Below are positions 5,177-56,373 of a stretch of DNA of 64,000 nucleotides, in pieces. Below the pieces are notes generated by a model. It made no database searches. It had not been told where the DNA came from and saw only the letters and a list, made by a program, of their open reading frames with translations. The stretch comes from Fodinibius salipaludis (GTDB lineage Bacteria; Bacteroidota; Rhodothermia; Balneolales; Balneolaceae). Within the stretch, counting starts at the first letter, position 1. Each line of letters begins with the position of its first letter. The stretch covers positions 124,001-188,000 of the forward strand of contig NZ_NSKE01000005.1 in the NCBI RefSeq assembly GCF_002287075.1, in the 5' to 3' direction. The position numbers and the translations under genes were made by a program.

Positions 5177-7009
5177 CTAAAATTCAATTTCTTCAATAGT
5201 TTCTCCGCAGCCGAGCATATCCTCACCCTGATAGGGATTTCGGATTTCTTCCTCCTCGCTTAGCCAATAGGCACCGTCATTATCATTGGCCATCGGACAA
5301 TATTGGTAGTACAGCACGCCATCCACACCAAATTCGCGCACGCTTTCTATGAGAGATTCGGAAAGCGGAAAGAACGCCTCCCGCTGATCATCAATATCTT
5401 GGGCTTCGACGATATTTTCCGACTCTCCGTTCAAGGTTTCCTTCAGTTCCATCCAACGATTGTGCTGTTCTTGATCAAGAAGCGTCATATCCATATTCTC
5501 CAACTCCTCGAGTAGATTTTGGGCAGATTTAGATGCCAATTCCGCATCGTCTTCAACCAGCGCATTCTTCAGCTCCAGATACACTTCGATGGCTGATTTC
5601 AGCTGATCGCGAAATTCTTGAGGTGCTTCCGATTCTGCCCCGCTAATTTCTGATCTCATATCAGTGTGCTCGCTATAATCTCCTTTATCGGATGACTCTT
5701 CGCCCATACTTCCGTGATCATGTCCACCGGTATTGGCACCAGTACCGGGCTCAGGATTCATCATGCTAAGCTTATCAGCCAGTTGTGCCGCACTGTCGAT
5801 CATAAAGTTACCGTGCACAACCACCCGTTCGCCTTCTTCCAATCCTTCTTTTATGATGTAGAAGTTGCCCACCCGCTGACCAAGCAGTACCTGACGTGCA
5901 CTGAAAGAGGTCCGCTCGCTATTGGAATTCTCTACGTATACCAACGACCGTTCACCAGTCCACATCACCGCCGAGGCAGGTACTTGTAATTGGGCTTTAC
6001 CACCAGCAACCGATGAGGAAACGGTACCTTTGGCCAGCATATTGGGTTTTAGGTCGCCATTTGCATTTTCGGCCTCGGCCCGAACTGTGGCCGTGCGAAG
6101 CCGGTCTTCCAGTATGGGATCGATGTAGGTGATTTGTCCGCTGTACGTTTCACCGGGATGCGAGCGCACGGTAAACGATACGGAGTCACCTTCGGCCAGA
6201 CCACTGAGATCGTTTTCATAGGCTTCGAATTCTACCCAGACCGAAGAAAGATCGGCAACCTCAAATATGGGCTCAGCAAAATGAATATGATCCCCCACCG
6301 AGACATGTCGCGTGGTCACATATCCGCTGCGATGTGAATGAATATCAAAATTACGCCGAGGTTCACCATCCTCGATAATATTGTCAATGACAGTTTCCGA
6401 GATCTCCCAGTTAATCAACTTTTGCCGAGCAGCACGATACAGACGGGGATTGGACTCGCGTCTTTCGTAGGCTTCCAGCAATTCTTTCTGGGCAGATACC
6501 AGCTCCGGCGCATAGACCGAAGCAATGGGGTCACCCTGCTCCACGTGGGCCCCGGTAAAATCAAGATAGAGTTTCTCGATTCGACCGGGGAAATGGGCCG
6601 GTATAACTGCGGTACGTCGCTCATCCACTGTTACTTTGCCTGGCATGCGCGATTCTTTTATAGCCGGTTCGGACCTGACTTCGGTAGTCTGTACTTCTGC
6701 CAATTTCATGGCGGTGGCAGTCATCGTTAAGGCGTATGGATCTTCTTCGGAATCATTTTCATCCACGTTATCAACTGGAATAAGTTCCATTCCGCAAATG
6801 GGACAGTTTCCCGGCTCATCCTCTCGAACATTCGGATGCATGCTGCAGGTATAAACAATATTGCCCTCTTCATCGGTATGCTGTTCCTGCACATGCTCGT
6901 TAATATCGGATGGTTCTCCGGATCCGCTAAAAAACAGCCAACCAATAAAAATTCCACCAACCAGTATAGCTATATAGGTGCTTAGAGTTCGCTTATTCAT
7001 CGTTTTCAT
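5177..7009 (-). CDS. cusB: CusB-type RND efflux adaptor with heavy-metal-binding and DUF3347 domains
   Basis: 610 residues. An N-terminal membrane anchor (residues 12-28) precedes a YTCSMHPNV...CPICGMEL module (around 53-80), the heavy-metal-binding domain fused to many Bacteroidota CusB proteins. The central part (about 95-420) has the membrane-fusion layout: beta-barrel, lipoyl and helical hairpin regions. A Met/His-rich linker leads to a C-terminal DUF3347 domain ending in YCPMANDNDGAYWLS and GCG. The protein should link the inner-membrane CusA pump to the TolC-type channel and may hand copper over. Its start overlaps the tolC-like stop by 17 bp; the second ATG, three codons on, is an equally good start. 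Confidence 0.9.
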   Translation of the reverse strand: MKTMNKRTLSTYIAILVGGIFIGWLFFSGSGEPSDINEHVQEQHTDEEGNIVYTCSMHPNVREDEPGNCPICGMELIPVDNVDENDSEEDPYALTMTATAMKLAEVQTTEVRSEPAIKESRMPGKVTVDERRTAVIPAHFPGRIEKLYLDFTGAHVEQGDPIASVYAPELVSAQKELLEAYERRESNPRLYRAARQKLINWEISETVIDNIIEDGEPRRNFDIHSHRSGYVTTRHVSVGDHIHFAEPIFEVADLSSVWVEFEAYENDLSGLAEGDSVSFTVRSHPGETYSGQITYIDPILEDRLRTATVRAEAENANGDLKPNMLAKGTVSSSVAGGKAQLQVPASAVMWTGERSLVYVENSNSERTSFSARQVLLGQRVGNFYIIKEGLEEGERVVVHGNFMIDSAAQLADKLSMMNPEPGTGANTGGHDHGSMGEESSDKGDYSEHTDMRSEISGAESEAPQEFRDQLKSAIEVYLELKNALVEDDAELASKSAQNLLEELENMDMTLLDQEQHNRWMELKETLNGESENIVEAQDIDDQREAFFPLSESLIESVREFGVDGVLYYQYCPMANDNDGAYWLSEEEEIRNPYQGEDMLGCGETIEEIEF

Positions 7010-8327
7010 TTGTTAATTCATTTTCGTTCAAATTGTGGGTACCGGTCAGCATTTCGATGCGTGCGACAGCTGTATTTTGCCGGCCAATAGCTTCGGCCTG
7101 ACCCTCCTGGTAGTTCAACAGTCGGCGCTGCAGCCTCAGAATTTCTTCGAAATCAGTATCGGCGCTGGCGTAATCTTCGGTAAGCACATCGATTGCCTGA
7201 CGAGTACGTTCGATCTGTTGATCAGTATAATTTTTCAGATCCCGCTCGGCATTTTTGTAATCCCTAAGGCTTTCTTCGAACCGGGTTTGCAGCTTGTTTT
7301 TACGGGATACCTGCTGATGTTGCACCGACCGACTTTGTAGTTCAGCCTGCGTTTTTTGTGCCCGATATTTACCGCGATAAAGCGGAATCTTAACGGTGGC
7401 CCGCACCATCATCGCATCTCGTCCACTGTCAACAATGTCCATATCACTTTGACCAGTTAGGATATAGTCCATACCCAGCCCGAACTTGGGCCGCCCGTCC
7501 AGTTTAGCTACTCGTATGGCTTCTCTCGAAGCCTGTTGTTGTGCCTCAAGCTGATCCAATTGGGGATTATTTTCGAATACCATTGCCTTTAATGCTTCTT
7601 TGCTATTCGGCAGCGGTTCTGCCGAAACAGTCATGCGGTCAGACATATCTACCGAATCAGTATTTAATAATTCTGCAAAATTTTGCTTCAGCACTTCATG
7701 ATCCTCTAATAGATTTTCCAGCTTAACGCGGGCATCATCTAACTCAATTTGAGCCTGGAGTACATCGGCCTGACCGGTATTACCATCCTCATAATTTTGT
7801 ATCGCAAGCTCTTCCAGCGTCTCGAGAATGTTGATGTGTTCCTCTACAATAGTGATACGCCGCTGCATCACAAACAGATCGTACCAAATAGACTTTATTT
7901 CGTAAAAAAGTTTATTGGCTTGCTGTTGGAATATCCGAAATTTGGCATCCGACTCACTGCTTCTTACTGCCTTTCGGGCGCCCAGCGTTCCAAACCAGGG
8001 AAACGTCTGTCCGACTGAAAATCGCGCATTTTGCGGACCCAGCCGTGTTTCGATCGGACTAATAAAGTAGCCAAAGCTGACTTCCGGATCGGGCAATGCT
8101 CCGGCCTGCCGGATGCTCTCCATTGAAGCCAGGTAATCATTATAAGCTGATCGGAGCTCCGGATTTTCCTCAACCGCCAAACTCAAGTAGTCTTCAAGTT
8201 GGAGATCGGTATTTGGCTGGGATGCATCCTGTGACTTAACTACATACGGTACTGTTAAAATAAGCAGCACAATGATGCAAACCCGCGCATTCAAACATCG
8301 TAAAAAAGTATTTTCTATATTCATCAT
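6993..8327 (-). CDS. cusC: TolC-family outer-membrane efflux protein (CusC-like)
   Basis: 444 residues. A signal sequence (about residues 12-32) is followed by two repeats of long heptad-like helices with LEDYLSLAVEENPELRSAY at the start, the usual opening of outer-membrane efflux (OEP) domains. The family forms trimeric channels across the outer membrane and periplasm. The start codon overlaps the last base of the cusA stop (TAATG), and the end overlaps cusB, so translation is probably coupled. Metal specificity is inferred from the neighbours. Confidence 0.87.
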   Translation of the reverse strand: MMNIENTFLRCLNARVCIIVLLILTVPYVVKSQDASQPNTDLQLEDYLSLAVEENPELRSAYNDYLASMESIRQAGALPDPEVSFGYFISPIETRLGPQNARFSVGQTFPWFGTLGARKAVRSSESDAKFRIFQQQANKLFYEIKSIWYDLFVMQRRITIVEEHINILETLEELAIQNYEDGNTGQADVLQAQIELDDARVKLENLLEDHEVLKQNFAELLNTDSVDMSDRMTVSAEPLPNSKEALKAMVFENNPQLDQLEAQQQASREAIRVAKLDGRPKFGLGMDYILTGQSDMDIVDSGRDAMMVRATVKIPLYRGKYRAQKTQAELQSRSVQHQQVSRKNKLQTRFEESLRDYKNAERDLKNYTDQQIERTRQAIDVLTEDYASADTDFEEILRLQRRLLNYQEGQAEAIGRQNTAVARIEMLTGTHNLNENELTNENDE

Positions 8328-11300
8328 TAGTTAGTTGATAATTTTTGTTGGTGCCATGTACCGGTTCGCCGTTTAAGCTGCCATTCTTTGTAGATGGCGT
8401 AGAGCACCGGAACTACAAACAAGGTTACGACCTGCAGCAACATGCCCCCCACGCTGGGAATAGCCATCGGAATCATAATTTCGGCTCCGCGTCCGGTAGA
8501 CGTCAACACAGGAATAAGCGCCAGAATCGTGGTGGCCGTGGTCATGAGTGTAGGACGAATTCGGCGCTGTCCCGCCCGTATTACCGTGGCACGAATTTGC
8601 TGTAAAGTAGTCGGTCTATTGCGTTCAAAAAGCTGGTCGAGATAGGTCGCCATCACCACGGCCCCGTCGGCGGCAATTCCGAACAGGGCAATGAATCCTA
8701 CCCACACGGCAATACTCAGATTCACCGTACCCATCTGGAACAGCTCGCGCATCGATTGACCAAATAGATCGAAATTCATAAACCAAGGCTGTCCATAGAG
8801 CCAGATAAGTAAAAACCCACCCGCCCAGGCTACAAAGATACTGCTGAAAATCATGCCGGTGGTAGGAACCGACTGAAACTGGAAATACATAATGAGAAAA
8901 ATCACCAGTAAGGCTATCGGCAGGATAATAGAAAGCCGTTCTTCGGCCCGCACCTGGTTCTCATAACTGCCGGCAAATTCATAGCTGATGCCTTGGGGAA
9001 CATCCAAATTACCTTCATCGATTTGCTGCTGCAGATGTTGCTGGGCATTCTCGACCACCTCTACCTCGGCAAATCCGTCCTGCTTATCAAAAATGACGTA
9101 TCCCACTAAAAATGTATCCTCAGCTTTAATCATTTGCGGTCCCTGCCGATAAGTGATCTCCGCCAATTGTCCCAGTGGAATCTGTGCCCCATCTGAAGTA
9201 GGCACAAGCATATTTTCCAGATCTTCGGGACTGTCGCGAAGTTCCCGAGCATAACGCACCCGAACGCTGTACCGCTCCCGATCTTCTACTGTTTGAGTTA
9301 ACGAAATACCGCCAAGCGCCACTTCGATATACCGTTGAACTTCCTGCATTGGGATACCGTAACGAGCCAGCTCCTCGCGGTCAATATTGAGTTCAAGGTA
9401 GGGCTTGCCGACAATGCGGTCGGCAAAGACCGACGAAGGCTGCACCCCTTCCACATTAGGGAGATGTTCTTCAAGCTTCAGCCCGAATTCTTCGATATTC
9501 TTCAAATTTTGCCCCTTCACCTTAATGCCCATCGGAGCCCGCATGCCCGACTGCAACATAATCTGGCGCGTTTCGATGGGCTGGAGTTTGGGTGCAGAAG
9601 TGAGTCCCGGCATCCGCGAAGCATCTACAATTTCTTCCCAAATATCATCCGGACTCTGAATCTCATCACGCCACTGCCGGTAGTATTGTCCATCCGAATC
9701 CGGGATGAGTTCACCATTATTATCACGAACAAATTCTCCGTCCTCATCCACCCGATAGCGCACGCGATGACCGTCATCATCTGTTTTATATTCTGACTTA
9801 TAGGTGATCAGATTTTCGAACATGGAAGTTGGAGCCGGATCAAGAGCGGTTTCAGCACGTCCCAACTTACCCACCACATTTTCTACTTCAGGAATAGAGC
9901 TTACACGTTTGTCGATTTTCTGCATATACTCCTCGGATTGTTCTACGCCCACATGCTGCATGGTAGTAGGCATCAGCAGAAAAGAGCCCTCATCCAATGG
10001 AGGCATAAACTCTTCGCCAAGTCCCGGGAAAGCCTCTTCGGCGCCGGTCCATAAACGAGTGGATTCAATATCCACGCCGATGGTATCAAAGCCACGGGCG
10101 ACGAATCCAAAAACGGATGAAAATCCGAGCCAAATGACCACACTAAGAACCATTAGTGCGGAGGGAACCGACAAAAACAGCGCTTTATGATCCAGGAACC
10201 AATCAAGAATAAGGCTGTAATATTTTATGACCAGATAGAATGAACCAAGCACCAAAACCAGCAATAGCGCCACAAAAAGCAGGTTCCAGAAAAGCGCTGT
10301 AGCAGGACCCAAAGGCAACCAATAGCGCGCCAGCAGATACGTCACAATGCCAACTATTAAGCTATTATTGATCAGCGACTGATATTGAGTATAGGGATGA
10401 TCGACCAGCAGCGGAAGCCCGTTAATCAGCCCGAAGCCGAGCAGTGCCAGTCCGCCCCAGACAGGTCCCGTAAAAAGTACGATCGTTCCCACGGCCACCA
10501 GCAATCCATTCCACCCGAGTTTAATCCAGCGACGGCGTATGTTGATGGAAAACAGCCAATGGGCAAAAGGCGGAATCAGGGTGAGGGCGATGATAAGCGA
10601 AGCCACCAGCGCGAAGGTTTTGGTATAGGCCAGCGGACGAAAGAGTTTGCCTTCGGCGGCAATCATGGTGAAAACCGGTAGAAAACTAACGATAGTAGTG
10701 GCGATGGCTGTCAAAACGGCGGAAGCTACTTCGCTGGTAGCACGGAAAATGATTTCGAGCAGGGGTTCATTCCTGTTGGATTCCTCAATATGTCGAAGCA
10801 TGTTCTCCGAGAGGATGACCCCCACATCCACAATGGTACCAATGGCAATGGCGATACCCGACAGGGCAACAATATTGGCATCCACCCCGACGATCTTCAT
10901 GGCAATAAAGGTCATCAGCACCGCCAGCGGAAGCATCCCGGAGATGAGCACAGAATTACGCAGGTTCATCAGCATAACGACCACAACAATAATAGTGATC
11001 AGAATTTCGAGGTTGAGCGCTTCCTCGAGGGTACCGATTGTTTCCTGGATGAGTTCGGATCGATCGTAAAAGGGTACAATTTCAACTTGTGACTCAGTGC
11101 CGTCCTCCAGCGTTTTAGAAGGGAGCCCGGATGAAAGCTCAGCTATTTTTTCCTTAACGTTATTGAGTACTTTCATAGGGTTTTCGCCGTCGCGGGCTAC
11201 CACTACGCCGCCCACTGCTTCGGCTCCCCCCTTGTCGAGAATACCGCGCCGTAGAGCCGGGCCCATGCTTACTTTAGCAATATCTCCAATACGAATGGGG

Positions 11301-12115
11301 ACGTTATCATTAGTTGCGATAACCGCCTCTTCCAGATCAGCAATCTCCTGCACATAGCCAAGTCCCCGCACAAAGTACTCTACGTTATTGAGCTCCATGG
11401 TACGAGCTCCCACCTCGGCATTACTGTTCTGTACCGCACGGTACACCTGGTTCATATTCACATTATAAACCTGCATGGCCTGCGGATCGACATCTACCTG
11501 ATACTCTTTGACGTACCCACCAATAGAAGCTACCTCTGCTACCCCATTGGCCGAAGAAAGTCCGTATCCAACATAAAAATCCTGCAACGTTCGCAGCTCC
11601 TGCAGATCCCATCCCCCCGCAGGATTCCCGTCGCTATCACGTCCTTCGAGGGTATACCAGAAAATTTGTCCCAGTGCAGTAGCATCAGGACCAAGCGCAG
11701 GCTGGACATCTCGGGGAAGCGTTCCGGCCGGTAGCGAGTTTAATTTCTCGAGGATACGCGATCGACTCCAATAGAACTCTATATCCTCCTCAAAAATGAC
11801 GTAGATACTCGACATGCCGAGGATGGAACTGCTGCGCACCGATTTTACCCCCGGCACATTCAGCAGTTGGGTAGTGAGCGGATAGGTAATCTGATCCTCC
11901 ACATCTTCGGGCGATCGTCCGGGCCACTCGGTGTATACAATCTGCTGATTTTCTCCCAGATCAGGGATGGCATCAACAGCTACGGGATCTTGGGGCAGCC
12001 AGTCGATTTCCCAGCCGAAAGGTGCAGTGGCCATGCCCCAAGCCGTAAAACCGACCAACATGAGTACGGCTATGAGCTTATTTTCAAGAAAAAAACGTAT
12101 TATTTTGTCGAGCAT
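8327..12115 (-). CDS. cusA: CusA/CzcA-type heavy-metal RND efflux pump
   Basis: 1262 residues, compared with about 1050 for E. coli CusA. Typical family segments are the N-terminal WPGRSPEDVEDQITYPL, the GIAIAIGTIVDVGVILSENM membrane region and DEGSFLLMPTTM in the porter domain. Extra length comes from two places: several added hydrophobic segments in the middle (about residues 535-650) and an Asp-rich periplasmic insertion around residues 770-800. A Met-containing stretch GMRAPMGIKV sits where HME pumps bind Cu/Ag. It should use the proton gradient to export metal through the adaptor and TolC partner. Subfamily and the Cu/Ag preference are inferred from motifs and the copper genes around it. 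Confidence 0.9.
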   Translation of the reverse strand: MLDKIIRFFLENKLIAVLMLVGFTAWGMATAPFGWEIDWLPQDPVAVDAIPDLGENQQIVYTEWPGRSPEDVEDQITYPLTTQLLNVPGVKSVRSSSILGMSSIYVIFEEDIEFYWSRSRILEKLNSLPAGTLPRDVQPALGPDATALGQIFWYTLEGRDSDGNPAGGWDLQELRTLQDFYVGYGLSSANGVAEVASIGGYVKEYQVDVDPQAMQVYNVNMNQVYRAVQNSNAEVGARTMELNNVEYFVRGLGYVQEIADLEEAVIATNDNVPIRIGDIAKVSMGPALRRGILDKGGAEAVGGVVVARDGENPMKVLNNVKEKIAELSSGLPSKTLEDGTESQVEIVPFYDRSELIQETIGTLEEALNLEILITIIVVVVMLMNLRNSVLISGMLPLAVLMTFIAMKIVGVDANIVALSGIAIAIGTIVDVGVILSENMLRHIEESNRNEPLLEIIFRATSEVASAVLTAIATTIVSFLPVFTMIAAEGKLFRPLAYTKTFALVASLIIALTLIPPFAHWLFSINIRRRWIKLGWNGLLVAVGTIVLFTGPVWGGLALLGFGLINGLPLLVDHPYTQYQSLINNSLIVGIVTYLLARYWLPLGPATALFWNLLFVALLLVLVLGSFYLVIKYYSLILDWFLDHKALFLSVPSALMVLSVVIWLGFSSVFGFVARGFDTIGVDIESTRLWTGAEEAFPGLGEEFMPPLDEGSFLLMPTTMQHVGVEQSEEYMQKIDKRVSSIPEVENVVGKLGRAETALDPAPTSMFENLITYKSEYKTDDDGHRVRYRVDEDGEFVRDNNGELIPDSDGQYYRQWRDEIQSPDDIWEEIVDASRMPGLTSAPKLQPIETRQIMLQSGMRAPMGIKVKGQNLKNIEEFGLKLEEHLPNVEGVQPSSVFADRIVGKPYLELNIDREELARYGIPMQEVQRYIEVALGGISLTQTVEDRERYSVRVRYARELRDSPEDLENMLVPTSDGAQIPLGQLAEITYRQGPQMIKAEDTFLVGYVIFDKQDGFAEVEVVENAQQHLQQQIDEGNLDVPQGISYEFAGSYENQVRAEERLSIILPIALLVIFLIMYFQFQSVPTTGMIFSSIFVAWAGGFLLIWLYGQPWFMNFDLFGQSMRELFQMGTVNLSIAVWVGFIALFGIAADGAVVMATYLDQLFERNRPTTLQQIRATVIRAGQRRIRPTLMTTATTILALIPVLTSTGRGAEIMIPMAIPSVGGMLLQVVTLFVVPVLYAIYKEWQLKRRTGTWHQQKLSTN

Positions 12116-45140: not shown

Positions 45141-45216
45141 ATGTCATGCTGAATTCATTTCAGCATCTACAGTTACCAAGTTTAGTACAGATCCTGAAAC
45201 AAGTTCAGGATGACAT
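45141..45216. repeat. Intergenic palindromic repeat, copy A
   Basis: Left arm TGTCATGCTGAATTCATTTC and right arm ending AAGTTCAGGATGACAT are near inverted copies across 20 bp; each arm also folds on itself (CTGAA...TTCAG). It lies between the two alpha-subunit genes of the transhydrogenase. Same family as 50039, 56287 and the weaker 55358 and 24779. Confidence 0.75.
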
Positions 45217-47385: not shown

Positions 47386-47497
47386 CAGACATGGAATTGC
47401 GAAAAAGTAGATAGTTGATTGGTATAGATCATCCGACTCAGATCCTCCGCAAAACTACGAACAATAACCTCCCCACACTTCAACAGTAAAATATATA

Positions 47498-47531
47498 CCT
47501 GGTTGCCAAAACAAGATGCTCAGCAACCAGG
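47498..47531. terminator. Weak terminator-like hairpin between convergent genes
   Basis: CCTGGTTGC / GCAACCAGG (9 bp) with a long 16-nt loop lies between the TonB remnant and nrdA, which converge. The T-run is poor on both strands, so function as a terminator is unsure. Confidence 0.35.
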
Positions 47532-47560
47532 CTGATGATTATATCAGAAAACTATCTACA

Positions 47561-49996
47561 TTATTCACAGCTGGGGCAAATTTTCTGCAGCATCGGATCG
47601 GTGGGACACGAACCTGCATCAGCATTTAAGGCCTGATCAACAACTTCGTCTCCGAATTTTTCCCGTGCTCTGGCCTCCAGCTCTTCCCGATCACTGACCG
47701 ATTCCTGTTCCTCTTTTCCCGGTTTAGACGATGTCCCGTTTGAGGATTCACTGCCGGTATCGGAGGAAACCGCTCCGAACCCTTTACGGGAACCTCGTTT
47801 GTTGACCTCTTCGGTATATTTCTCGCCTTTTACCACTTTGTCGATAAAGCAGTAGTACGTGGATTTTAGTTTTTTCTCCCATGCATAGAGATAAAATTCC
47901 TCCATATCATCGCGCATACGCTCAGCAATATACAACGATTTAGAAACTGACTGATCGATAGACTCCTGAAACGCTGCAGCAATATCAATTTGTCGCTCCG
48001 GATGGATTTCATATGCGGTCTTATACAAATCTTTGTTGATCACACCATCCAATTCTTGAATCGGTTGCACCGAGCCATTATTCGCTTTTATTTTCTGAGC
48101 CATCTCGTCGCTCCAATGCCCTTTTTCTTCGAGATCCTCAATTAGCTGACGATTGATAACGATATGCTTTCCAGACAAGGTGTCCCGAGAGTACAGGTTA
48201 CTAAAATAACTATCGATGGATGAAGTCGTACCCGAAATAATAGAGATCGAAGCCGTAGGTGCAATGGCCAGCAGTACCGCATTACGCCGTGGTTTGTAAT
48301 CATAGGGACTACCTGCTTCTTTCATCTCTCGGTAATGCTCAAAAGCACCGCGCTCCTCGGCCAACTGTTGAGACGTACGATATGTCACTTTTCGCATAAA
48401 GGCACCAATTTTTCGGGCCAGGATAACAGCCTCTTCAGAATCATAGGGAATTCCTAAATCAACCAGTGCTTCGGCAAATCCCATGAGTCCGATACCCAGC
48501 GGACGCAAATCCATAGTATTCTTTTCGGCAGGCTCGGAGGGATAAAAGTTCTTATCAAGTACGTTATCGAGTCCGCGCGTCATCGTCTCCAACGTATCTT
48601 CAAACTTGTCCCAATCTATGTCACTTTCATCATCGGTTAGGTGTTTCGACAAGTTAACCGATGCCAGTGTGCACACCGCGGTAGAGTCAGAGTGATTGGG
48701 GATAGAAATCTCAGTGCAGAGATTCGAGCTATTAATTACGCTGTACTCCGGACATGGGTTATGACGGTTATGCTCGTCTTTGAAAATTAACCACGGATGA
48801 CCTGTTTTAGCCAATTTAAAGAGGTATTTTTTGAAGAAGTTTTTGCTATCGCGCTTGTCAAACTGTTTTAAACCTCCAGCCTCAGCCTGCTCAATACGCT
48901 TTTCATATTTTGCTCTAAAGTCGTCTCCTACAGCATCCACCAACTCGGGGCATTCTCCCGGATCAAAAAAGTACAGGGGTTCCCCTTCTTTGATACGACG
49001 CATCATTTCGTCGGGCATCCATAAGCTGGTATTCAGTGACGGCGTACGAAAATAGGCATTCCCGGTTGTCTCACGCAAATCCAGAAATCCATCGATATCA
49101 AGATGCCATGGCTGCATCGACATCACCTGCGAGCTGCGCCGACGTCCGCCCTGCTGAATAGAATTAACCAGCGTGTCAAAAATTTTGATGAACGGAATAG
49201 CACCTGATGAAGGAGCATTTAGCGATTTAATATTAGAACCTGTTGCCCGAATGCGGGTCACATCGGTACCTACGCCGCCGGCATATTTCGCCAAAAAGGC
49301 CGTTTCACGGGCTTTATCCATAATGGAATCCAGCGAATCATCAATAACACTTACGTAGCACGATGAATACTGAGCAGTAGTGGTACCAGAGTTAAATAAC
49401 GTGGGCGTAGAGTGTAAATATTCAAGTTTTGAAAGCTTGTTGTAAATCTTAATAACTTCCCCATTGGAATTTCCAATTCCCATAGCTACCCGCATAAAAA
49501 ACCATTGAGGCTTTTCAATAATTTGATCATCCCGATCTCGCATCAAGTAGCGATCTTTAAGTGTAGTCAACCCGAAATACCCAAGCAGCCCGTCGCGATC
49601 AAAATTCAGGCTATTAGCCAACAGCTCAAAATCAAACTCCTTAAGACTCTCATCCAGCAAATTTTCTTCGAATCCTCGGGCTAAATAATCCCGGAAATGA
49701 TCCAGTCGCCGGTTGATATCTTTGTCTATGATCTTCAATAGTTGCCGAGTGGCTAACGTATCGTAAACAGGATGCTTGGGGATAAGCTGCTCGATGGCTT
49801 TTAGCACAAGTTGATCAAGCTCCTCGGTGGCAACTCTTTTAGGTACTTTCAGATCAAGTTCTTTCATAATTTTGAAAACGATTTCGTAATCGTCTTCAAC
49901 CTCCAACCCTTGGATTATTTCGAAGATGGCATTAATAATTTTCTGGGTACGGAAAGGTTCTTCCGTTCCGTCGCGTTTTATGACTGTTCGTTTCAT
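47561..49996 (-). CDS. nrdA: Ribonucleoside-diphosphate reductase, large subunit
   Basis: 811 residues. An N-terminal ATP-cone (VIKRDGTEEPFRTQKIINAI, residues about 4-95) regulates activity. Active-site Cys lies in SSNLCTEISIPN; SCYVSVIDDSL, DLRPLGIGLMGFAEAL and NAVLLAIAPTASISIISGT are class I landmarks. STYYCFIDK holds a Tyr pair for radical transfer, and the C-terminal CPSC redox pair is at the extreme end. It follows nrdB on the same strand with repeat copy B between them. Confidence 0.95.
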   Translation of the reverse strand: MKRTVIKRDGTEEPFRTQKIINAIFEIIQGLEVEDDYEIVFKIMKELDLKVPKRVATEELDQLVLKAIEQLIPKHPVYDTLATRQLLKIIDKDINRRLDHFRDYLARGFEENLLDESLKEFDFELLANSLNFDRDGLLGYFGLTTLKDRYLMRDRDDQIIEKPQWFFMRVAMGIGNSNGEVIKIYNKLSKLEYLHSTPTLFNSGTTTAQYSSCYVSVIDDSLDSIMDKARETAFLAKYAGGVGTDVTRIRATGSNIKSLNAPSSGAIPFIKIFDTLVNSIQQGGRRRSSQVMSMQPWHLDIDGFLDLRETTGNAYFRTPSLNTSLWMPDEMMRRIKEGEPLYFFDPGECPELVDAVGDDFRAKYEKRIEQAEAGGLKQFDKRDSKNFFKKYLFKLAKTGHPWLIFKDEHNRHNPCPEYSVINSSNLCTEISIPNHSDSTAVCTLASVNLSKHLTDDESDIDWDKFEDTLETMTRGLDNVLDKNFYPSEPAEKNTMDLRPLGIGLMGFAEALVDLGIPYDSEEAVILARKIGAFMRKVTYRTSQQLAEERGAFEHYREMKEAGSPYDYKPRRNAVLLAIAPTASISIISGTTSSIDSYFSNLYSRDTLSGKHIVINRQLIEDLEEKGHWSDEMAQKIKANNGSVQPIQELDGVINKDLYKTAYEIHPERQIDIAAAFQESIDQSVSKSLYIAERMRDDMEEFYLYAWEKKLKSTYYCFIDKVVKGEKYTEEVNKRGSRKGFGAVSSDTGSESSNGTSSKPGKEEQESVSDREELEARAREKFGDEVVDQALNADAGSCPTDPMLQKICPSCE

Positions 49997-50038: not shown

Positions 50039-50123
50039 ATGTCATCCAGAACTTGTTTCGGGATCTAATACATGAGATGCTGAAAACAAAGCCCGTCCCG
50101 ACACATCGGAGTTCAGCATGACA
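50039..50123. repeat. Intergenic palindromic repeat, copy B
   Basis: Left arm TGTCATCCAGAACTTGTTTC; right arm ends GTTCAGCATGACA and contains CCCGTCCCGACACATCGG, an extended arm with a nested hairpin (CCCGA/TCGGG type). It occupies most of the nrdB-nrdA gap. Its long arm matches copy C. Confidence 0.75.
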
Positions 50124-50132
50124 AAGAATGGT

Positions 50133-51119
50133 TTAGTAATTCGTATATTCGGTGGATGAGACTTCGAAGAAGTTGATTAACTTTTTGACGTCCTCTTTTT
50201 GCAGGAATCGAAGCGGATTTTCATTGATATGGAACTCCTGCTGAAAACCCAGCTCTTGCAGTCGCCGGTCGGTAATGTATTTGAGATAACGCTCCATTTC
50301 TCCCGATGAAATTCCCAGGATCGTCCGATCACCAAACTGATGCTTCACGTATTCAATTTCGAGTGATGTTCCTTCCAGAATTACATTGCGGATATCCTGC
50401 ACATATTCAGTATCCTCAACAATCTCCGGGTTTTCATCCAGCATAATGAGGATGGCCTCGATACCATTTTGCAGGTGTAATGACTCATCGATCAATACCA
50501 GCTCTACACCGGACACTACGTTTTTCATCTTGGCCATATCTTTAAGTGCAAAAAAGTGGGCAAAAGAGGAATAGAAGAAGATCCCTTCCAGTACAATATT
50601 ATTTAGCAAAATAGCCCGCAACACCTGTTTTTGTCCTTCAAGCGTTTCGGGATTAATTTTCCCATGACTAATCTTATCAATTTCATCGACGATAAGATCC
50701 TGTTTTTTACGCAAGATGGGATCATCAAATGCCACATCGTACATTTTCTCGCGATCCAGGCCAAACGATTGCAGCACAATTTCAAAGAAATCACTGTGGA
50801 TATTTTCCATAAAAAGCTGTGTGCTAAAACTCATCTTCGCATGCGGATCAGTTAGCAGCGGGAAAAATGAGTTGACCAGTACATTTTGTACCAGCAGCTC
50901 CGACGAGCAGAAATAGCCAACTGCTGTGTCAAATAATTCCTTTTCATCGTCAGTCAGAGAATGGTAGTCAAGAGCATCCTGCTGAATATTCAGCTCCTCA
51001 GGAAACCAAACCACTTTCTTTTGTTTTTCGTACAGTTCTTTAAAAATAGGATAAGATGGATCTTCACTGAGTTTAATATTATCTCGTACAGAAGTACGTC
51101 CGATTAATTTTGTCGACAT
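50133..51119 (-). CDS. nrdB: Ribonucleotide reductase small subunit, class Ic-like
   Basis: 328 residues. Metal ligands read Glu74, Glu105, His108, Glu178, Glu212, His215; the spacing 31-3-70-34-3 equals the class Ic Chlamydia enzyme. Position 112, four after the first His (MENIHSDFF), is Phe where class Ia has the radical Tyr, and the first ligand is Glu rather than Asp. These are the known class Ic marks, linked to a Mn/Fe cofactor without a Tyr radical. With NrdA it makes deoxyribonucleotides. The class is inferred from residues, not measured. It is 121 bp downstream of metE, same strand. Confidence 0.9.
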   Translation of the reverse strand: MSTKLIGRTSVRDNIKLSEDPSYPIFKELYEKQKKVVWFPEELNIQQDALDYHSLTDDEKELFDTAVGYFCSSELLVQNVLVNSFFPLLTDPHAKMSFSTQLFMENIHSDFFEIVLQSFGLDREKMYDVAFDDPILRKKQDLIVDEIDKISHGKINPETLEGQKQVLRAILLNNIVLEGIFFYSSFAHFFALKDMAKMKNVVSGVELVLIDESLHLQNGIEAILIMLDENPEIVEDTEYVQDIRNVILEGTSLEIEYVKHQFGDRTILGISSGEMERYLKYITDRRLQELGFQQEFHINENPLRFLQKEDVKKLINFFEVSSTEYTNY

Positions 51120-55357: not shown

Positions 55358-55406
55358 AGACCCTGAACTTCCGTATGTTCGAGACACGCTAAGTTCAGGA
55401 TCACAC
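55358..55406. repeat. Degenerate intergenic palindromic repeat, copy D
   Basis: AGACCCTGAACTT and AAGTTCAGGATCACA form an inverted pair around a short centre and match the inner arms of copies A-C. Part of the arm set has been lost. Confidence 0.45.
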
Positions 55407-56286: not shown

Positions 56287-56373
56287 ATGTCATGCTGAAT
56301 CCCGATGTGTCGGGATAGGCTTTGTTTCAGTATCTTCCAAAAATTTAGATCCTGAAATGAATTCAGGATGACA
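56287..56373. repeat. Intergenic palindromic repeat, copy C
   Basis: Left arm TGTCATGCTGAATCCCGATG continues TGTCGGGATAGGC (nested hairpin CCCGAtgtgTCGGG); right arm AGATCCTGAAATGAATTCAG ends in GATGACA. Between nth and the Memo-family gene. Long arm shared with copy B; short arm with copy A. Confidence 0.75.

Follow-up and report, generated by a model that had tools for sequence, protein, structure and literature searches.

The question raised by this locus is what kind of class I ribonucleotide reductase (RNR) is built around an R2 (radical-generating) subunit that has phenylalanine at the site of the radical tyrosine. The first-pass annotation of the window (the whole 64,000-nucleotide stretch of Fodinibius salipaludis DNA analysed) had reported class Ic marks in this protein and predicted a Mn/Fe cofactor instead of a Tyr radical. 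The R2 gene and the residues discussed below, placed by alignment except where other evidence is given, are as follows.

50133..51119, minus strand: nrdB, R2 subunit, 328 aa, without the radical tyrosine (ORF with ATG start; PF00268, 4e-62; fold nearest Chlamydia NrdB, Z 39.6)
51006..51008, minus strand: Trp38 codon (E. coli W48, Chlamydia W51)
50898..50900, minus strand: Glu74 codon, metal ligand 1 (Asp in class Ia/Ib)
50805..50810, minus strand: codons of Met104 (second-sphere position 7; Glu in class Ic) and ligand Glu105
50796..50798, minus strand: ligand His108 codon
50784..50786, minus strand: Phe112 codon, at the radical-Tyr site (E. coli Y122)
50586..50588, minus strand: ligand Glu178 codon
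50499..50501, minus strand: Leu207 codon, at the place of Chlamydia Tyr222
50475..50489, minus strand: codons of Asp211, ligand Glu212 and ligand His215 (D-E-S-L-H)
50136..50147, minus strand: codons 325-328 (Tyr-Thr-Asn-Tyr), the radical-transfer Tyr325 (Y356 equivalent) and three further residues (tail length 3 in 50/50 sequences)

The six ligands had been placed correctly at Glu74, Glu105, His108, Glu178, Glu212 and His215, and they are invariant in 50 distinct relatives; likewise, Phe112 occupies the radical-Tyr position in all 50. Across this clade, in sequences down to 65% identity, Trp38, Glu74, Met104, Glu105, His108, Phe111, Phe112, Glu178, Tyr183, Leu207, Asp211, Glu212, His215 and Tyr325 never vary, and Tyr69 is also invariant in the alignment. 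Since the same pattern is found in Balneolota, Bacteroidota and Aquificota, it is not the product of chance or of sequencing error. The sequence alignment called for as a check places no Tyr at the radical position. A comparison of the invariant tyrosines as alternative radical sites gave no substitute specific to the clade; Tyr183, at the position of E. coli Tyr209, also occurs in class Ic R2s and in ordinary ones with a Tyr radical.

The ligand spacing, 31-3-70-34-3, is indeed identical to that of Chlamydia trachomatis (E89, E120, H123, E193, E227, H230), as had been noted, but it is not specific to class Ic. Relatives with Tyr and Asp at the two diagnostic positions (from a Pseudomonas plasmid, Teredinibacter and viral contigs) share it, therefore the spacing marks the wider NrdBz-like fold rather than class Ic or a particular cofactor.

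In the published scheme, Phe/Glu marks class Ic, Tyr/Asp classes Ia and Ib, and Tyr/Glu class Id (PMC8463856), and the Tyr-less R2 proteins of class Ic are reported to form a tight cluster (PMC4390871). The window protein has the six ligands E,E,H,E,E,H and, where class Ic has Phe, Leu or Val at the radical site, Phe112 (50/50); however, the class Ic Glu at position 7 (Chlamydia Glu119) is Met104 and the equivalent of Tyr222 is Leu207, both in 50/50 sequences. According to Griese et al. 2014 (PMC4118035), the activation electron travels through Tyr222 and Trp51, and the former is a conserved residue of R2c proteins; the equivalent of Tyr222 is Tyr in all NrdBz-like rows compared, class Ic and Tyr-bearing alike. 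When set against the eight metal-site positions given for each RNRdb group (Harrison et al. 2019, PMC6370689), the clade pattern of E,E,H,E,E,H with Met and Asp fits no published R2 group: the Met position is Glu in NrdBzc, Cys or Ser in class Id and Asp in the phage 'If' group, and the groups that do have Met at position 7 all have Asp as first ligand. The Phe/Glu pair and the six ligands reported in the first-pass annotation thus hold; the two further class Ic positions differ, and the protein does not group with Chlamydia and Salinibacter, as described below. Rather than a standard member of class Ic, this R2 is part of a separate clade on a long stem, with members in Balneolaceae, Prolixibacteraceae and Hydrogenothermaceae.

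The residue patterns of the other classes also differ from that of the window protein. Class Ia/Ib has Asp as ligand 1 and a radical Tyr, in place of which the window protein has Glu74 and Phe112, and class Id (NrdBi) keeps the Tyr with Cys or Ser at position 7, in place of which there are Phe112 and Met104. Class Ie is characterized by carboxylate loss (Val/Gln, Pro/Ser, Lys) and a DOPA radical on Tyr; here all six ligands are present and there is no such Tyr, which makes a metal-free class Ie enzyme very unlikely, as had been argued. Class O has an alpha subunit of ~412 aa without ATP-cone, the finger loop NVCLE and a beta subunit of ~240 aa, against an 811-aa alpha with ATP-cone, NLCTE and a 328-aa beta in the window.

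Several known systems nevertheless resemble this one in part. The class Ic R2 of Chlamydia trachomatis (NrdBzc, R2c; PDB 1syy, 4m1i) has, in addition to the EEHEEH ligands, their spacing and the Phe at the radical site, a Phe between the metal sites (F182/F197), the Trp relay, the C-terminal pathway Tyr and an R1 with ATP-cone, although identity is ~28%, Met104 and Leu207 stand for Glu119 and Tyr222, and the clades are separate. The eukaryote-type class Ia R2 (NrdBe) shares the MENIHS motif, Met at position 7 and Leu at the Tyr222 place; unlike the window protein it has Asp as ligand 1, a radical Tyr, a shorter loop (58 vs 70 residues) and a separate clade. The ferritin-like subunit of the Cyano SP or class O phages (PMC6370689, PMC9531940) is also Tyr-less with Glu as ligand 1, ends almost at the pathway Tyr and has an eight-residue pattern outside every RNRdb group. 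Its beta of ~240 aa, its 412-aa alpha without ATP-cone, its second-sphere Asp and its NVCLE loop differ, however, and of the class O features compared the window protein has just the short tail and the Phe. Class Ic-like R2 proteins outside NrdAz, in NrdAq, are noted by Burnim and Ando 2022 (PMC9669993); these NrdAq/NrdAz 'class Ic-like' enzymes belong to Group 3 of the class I RNRs and, as here, carry a redox-inert residue in place of the R2 Tyr. The window clade may fall within NrdAq, for which a search of that paper's text turned up neither residues nor species.

An AlphaFold2 model was built from 35 window and locus sequences (mean pLDDT 83.5, pTM 0.83; low confidence for the last 18 residues). 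Its best solved match is Chlamydia NrdB (Z 39.6, 1.9 A over 298 residues), followed by entry 6y2n, probably from Saccharopolyspora erythraea (38.2), E. coli R2 (~35), A. aeolicus R2 (34), class Id (31.9) and class Ib (31.8). Chlamydia NrdB is thus the top solved relative by fold (Z 39-40), and is among the top ones by profile. The modelled match supports an R2 fold and closeness to Chlamydia NrdB and says nothing on the metal.

The C-terminus differs from those of most R2 proteins. Class I R2s usually extend about ten residues past the pathway Tyr, and these residues bind R1, whereas phage class O proteins end one residue after it (PMC9531940). Chlamydia R2 has ~eight residues past this Tyr vs three in the window R2, and the other complete R2s compared have 8-25, with the exception of a second Tyr-less lineage in Aquificota (0, ending on the Tyr). 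The last 24 residues of the window R2 are 90% identical in 31 distant members, vs 67% for the whole protein. On this conservation, a short anchor ending in Tyr or Phe may replace the usual R1-binding tail.

The catalytic partner is encoded directly downstream, with the following features.

47561..49996, minus strand: nrdA, R1 (catalytic) subunit, 811 aa, with one N-terminal ATP-cone (PF02867, PF00317, PF03477; NLCTE, Y714-Y715, C213/C427/C442, C-terminal CPSCE)
48716..48718, minus strand: NrdA Cys427 codon (E. coli C439, thiyl radical site; alignment to E. coli NrdA)
47852..47857, minus strand: NrdA Tyr714-Tyr715 codons (E. coli Y730-Y731; alignment to E. coli NrdA)
47497..47532, minus strand: terminator-like hairpin directly 3' of nrdA (14-pair stem; consensus match only, the total number of such hairpins being no higher than in shuffled sequence)

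The order is nrdB then nrdA on the same strand, with 136 bp between them, and a complete nrdA adjoins nrdB in the members examined. The finger loop NLCxE (NLCTE), the Tyr-Tyr dyad, the C-terminal Cys pair and the adjacent R2 are those of a class I RNR. The residues, their conservation, the clade, the complete R1 partner and the operon order are direct observations. A palindromic repeat (TGTCATGCTGAACT ... GATGACA) lies between the two genes at window 50040-50123 and recurs at 45142-45215, 56288-56373 and near 55392. Elsewhere in the clade, a class III nrdD is directly downstream of nrdBA in Sunxiuqinia (G415:C12:313835-317750) and Mariniphaga (G414:C67:87583-91485), NrdA is 1206-1232 aa long in several Hydrogenothermaceae (G496, G512, G516, G518, G495), and that of locus L274 has an intein-sized insert of ~430 aa after the position of window residue 216.

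Searches of the window's genome found no second R2, no NrdD and no NrdI (the helper flavodoxin), and one weak, distant match to an NrdR box, which is no more than expected by chance. A class II NrdJ is present on another contig (G000:C1:269434-271632; 1214 aa, NPCSE finger loop), and nrdBA need therefore not be essential there; perhaps the two RNR systems serve different oxygen or B12 conditions. In three Hydrogenothermaceae assemblies (G412, G413, G482), which are perhaps incomplete, nrdBA is the only RNR found, with no other R2 or class II enzyme, and class III represented in a model search only by one sub-threshold fragment with stops. As the sole RNR in these assemblies, the Tyr-less R2 very probably works, and a dead enzyme in the clade is improbable.

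A scan of 84,980 species found clade members of 80-96% identity in Balneolaceae and Prolixibacteraceae (Mariniphaga, Sunxiuqinia), including a 96%-identical R2 on a contig from the same genus (G003:C78), and of 65-70% identity in Hydrogenothermaceae of the Aquificota (Persephonella, Sulfurihydrogenibium). The clade is a further, well-populated Tyr-less R2 lineage, separate and widely shared, with many Hydrogenothermaceae among its carriers. It is found in many of the 136 Aquificota genomes searched, the R2s of other Aquificota having ~30% identity or less, and in 9 of the 12 genomes of the window's genus; its occurrence across the rest of the family is patchy, which suggests that horizontal transfer brought it into Balneolota. 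A viral origin was considered and rejected: viral contigs scanned with the window protein and two alignments gave no clade member, only general R2s of 26-31% identity, and phage and plasmid searches gave nothing above 60% identity, with best matches of ~34%. In the literature, no paper was found that joins ribonucleotide reductase with Persephonella marina, a non-exhaustive search on Balneola, Fodinibius and Gracilimonas found no mention of the enzyme, and no biochemical reports on any clade member were found. Two other groups of R2-like proteins were seen in these taxa. The second Tyr-less R2 of Aquificota (L225, L279, L280, L281, L240, in genomes G450, G447, G449, G451, G448) is distinct, with Glu as ligand 1, Phe at the radical site and Trp at the Tyr222 place; intact copies end on Tyr (..NFFEAKVDY), and in G450 no NrdA was found within ~6 kb. 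In the same family or order as the window, L010, L011, L013 and L014 encode R2-like proteins of ~443-514 aa with a ferritin-like domain containing EEAKH..FF and ~150-180 extra N-terminal residues, without the C-terminal pathway Tyr region.

The preferred reading is that nrdBA encodes a working aerobic class I RNR with a Tyr-radical-free R2 and a metal-centred oxidant, with Mn/Fe as cofactor; for this statement as a whole a probability of about 0.6 seems appropriate. That the oxidant is metal-centred, with no Tyr radical, as the Phe/Glu pair predicts, is highly likely. The reading is supported by the invariance of the ligands, Phe112, Trp38, Asp211 and Tyr325, by the Phe/Glu pair, by the complete NrdA, by its being the sole RNR in three assemblies, by the lack of an NrdI, by the high rank of Chlamydia NrdB in the fold and profile comparisons and by the isolated place of the clade in the R2 and R1 trees. 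We infer the identity of the metals, their oxidation states, the electron path and the docking as follows. The dinuclear site (E74, E105, H108, E178, E212, H215) would react with oxygen and store the oxidising equivalent beside Phe112. By analogy with Chlamydia, the metals would most likely be Mn at site 1 and Fe at site 2, active as Mn(IV)/Fe(III). The oxidant would then pass by way of R2 Trp38 and Tyr325 to NrdA Tyr715, Tyr714 and Cys427. Because the Chlamydia Tyr222 relay is absent, the activation electron probably enters by Trp38 alone, and the very short C-terminal tail would dock R2 to NrdA. The first-pass prediction of Mn/Fe and no Tyr radical is reasonable and in keeping with the published class Ic residue pair, but the first ligand by itself does not determine the metal of an R2 (PMC4118035), and Mn/Fe is therefore only the likeliest guess. 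Since two further R2c marks are missing and the clade groups separately, it is an extrapolation across a deep split. The break in the class Ic pattern at Met104 and Leu207 counts against the preferred reading, as do the perhaps incomplete state of the three assemblies, the NrdJ of the window's own genome and the long stem of the clade.

The tree called for in the first-pass annotation shows how deep the split is. In the R2 tree the clade stands alone on a long stem (100/100), and this was repeated after long-branch rows were dropped and trait columns masked; in the R1 tree it again forms a clade of its own (100/100), apart from an NrdAz-like group that is itself supported (99/100). The best R2 and R1 trees both place it outside NrdBz. 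The concatenated R1 and R2 tree joins it weakly to NrdBz (68/65) and the three-way split stays; because the stem is long, the clade's place is uncertain. A grouping with the other Tyr-less lineage of Aquificota is compatible with the data (p 0.18). A single clade of all Tyr-less R2s is rejected (p 0.0011), as expected given that Tyr/Asp proteins nest among class Ic ones. It is possible that a Tyr-less state was ancestral to the clade and NrdBz, with Tyr regained in the Pseudomonas-type proteins.

These trees bear on the alternative that the protein is an ordinary class Ic R2, a diverged member of the Chlamydia/NrdBz line with the same Mn/Fe cofactor and relay. The Phe/Glu pair, the identical spacing and the position of Chlamydia NrdB, first by fold and among the top relatives by profile, agree with it, and joining the clade to the whole NrdBz-like group (p 0.19-0.30) or to its eight core members (p 0.21) is compatible with the data. 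However, grouping with Chlamydia and Salinibacter (AU p=0.011), or with the F/E class Ic members only (p 0.0026), is rejected, the equivalents of Tyr222 and Glu119 are absent in 50/50 sequences, and the R1 tree also places the clade outside the NrdAz-like rows (99/100). Ordinary class Ic membership is rather unlikely. A dimanganese metal-centred oxidant of the class Id kind, Mn2(IV,III), is a little less likely again. Glu as ligand 1 is common to class Id, no NrdI was found and Mn-only use would suit a Tyr-less site, but class Id keeps its Tyr, which is needed for activity in F. johnsoniae (PMC8463856), has Cys or Ser where the window R2 has Met at position 7, and is distant in the tree with a lower fold score.

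A di-iron site with the radical on another residue, such as the invariant Tyr183 or Trp38, or with an Fe(III)Fe(IV) state, is improbable. Tyr183 and Tyr69 are both invariant and many thermophile habitats are iron-rich, which would suit it; against this, the occurrence of Tyr183 in ordinary Tyr-radical and class Ic proteins means that it is not a clade-specific replacement. The notion that the protein is an R2-like oxidase and not an RNR subunit can be given hardly any weight: such oxidases also have Glu as ligand 1 and no radical Tyr at the site, but here a complete nrdA is adjacent in the members examined, the radical path Trp38/Asp211/Tyr325 is conserved, the NCBIfam RNR beta model scores 208.6 bits vs 61.8 for R2lox, and Phe182 stands where R2lox has Ala.

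What is new is that a separate and widely shared lineage of Tyr-less R2s departs from class Ic at two conserved positions and from the tail rule. The lineage keeps all six ligands yet alters two other positions thought to be important, and so provides a natural experiment on the residues that govern the choice of metal and on the need for the Tyr222 relay, while its three-residue tail challenges the rule that an R2 needs about ten residues past the pathway Tyr for R1 binding. Whether the clade amounts to a new biochemical subclass of class I RNR is more doubtful, and this is put forward tentatively. Such a subclass would have a Tyr-less R2 arisen separately from the Chlamydia line, its own second sphere (Glu ligand 1, Met104, Leu207), activation by Trp38 only, almost tail-less docking and a spread between thermophilic Aquificota and halophilic Balneolota/Bacteroidota. 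Heat stability is probable for the members from Aquificota and would be of use in structural and spectroscopic work. Elsewhere in the window, 5177-12115 contains a heavy-metal efflux operon with an AcrB/CusA-type transporter, an outer membrane factor and a CusB-like adaptor with HMBD and DUF3347.
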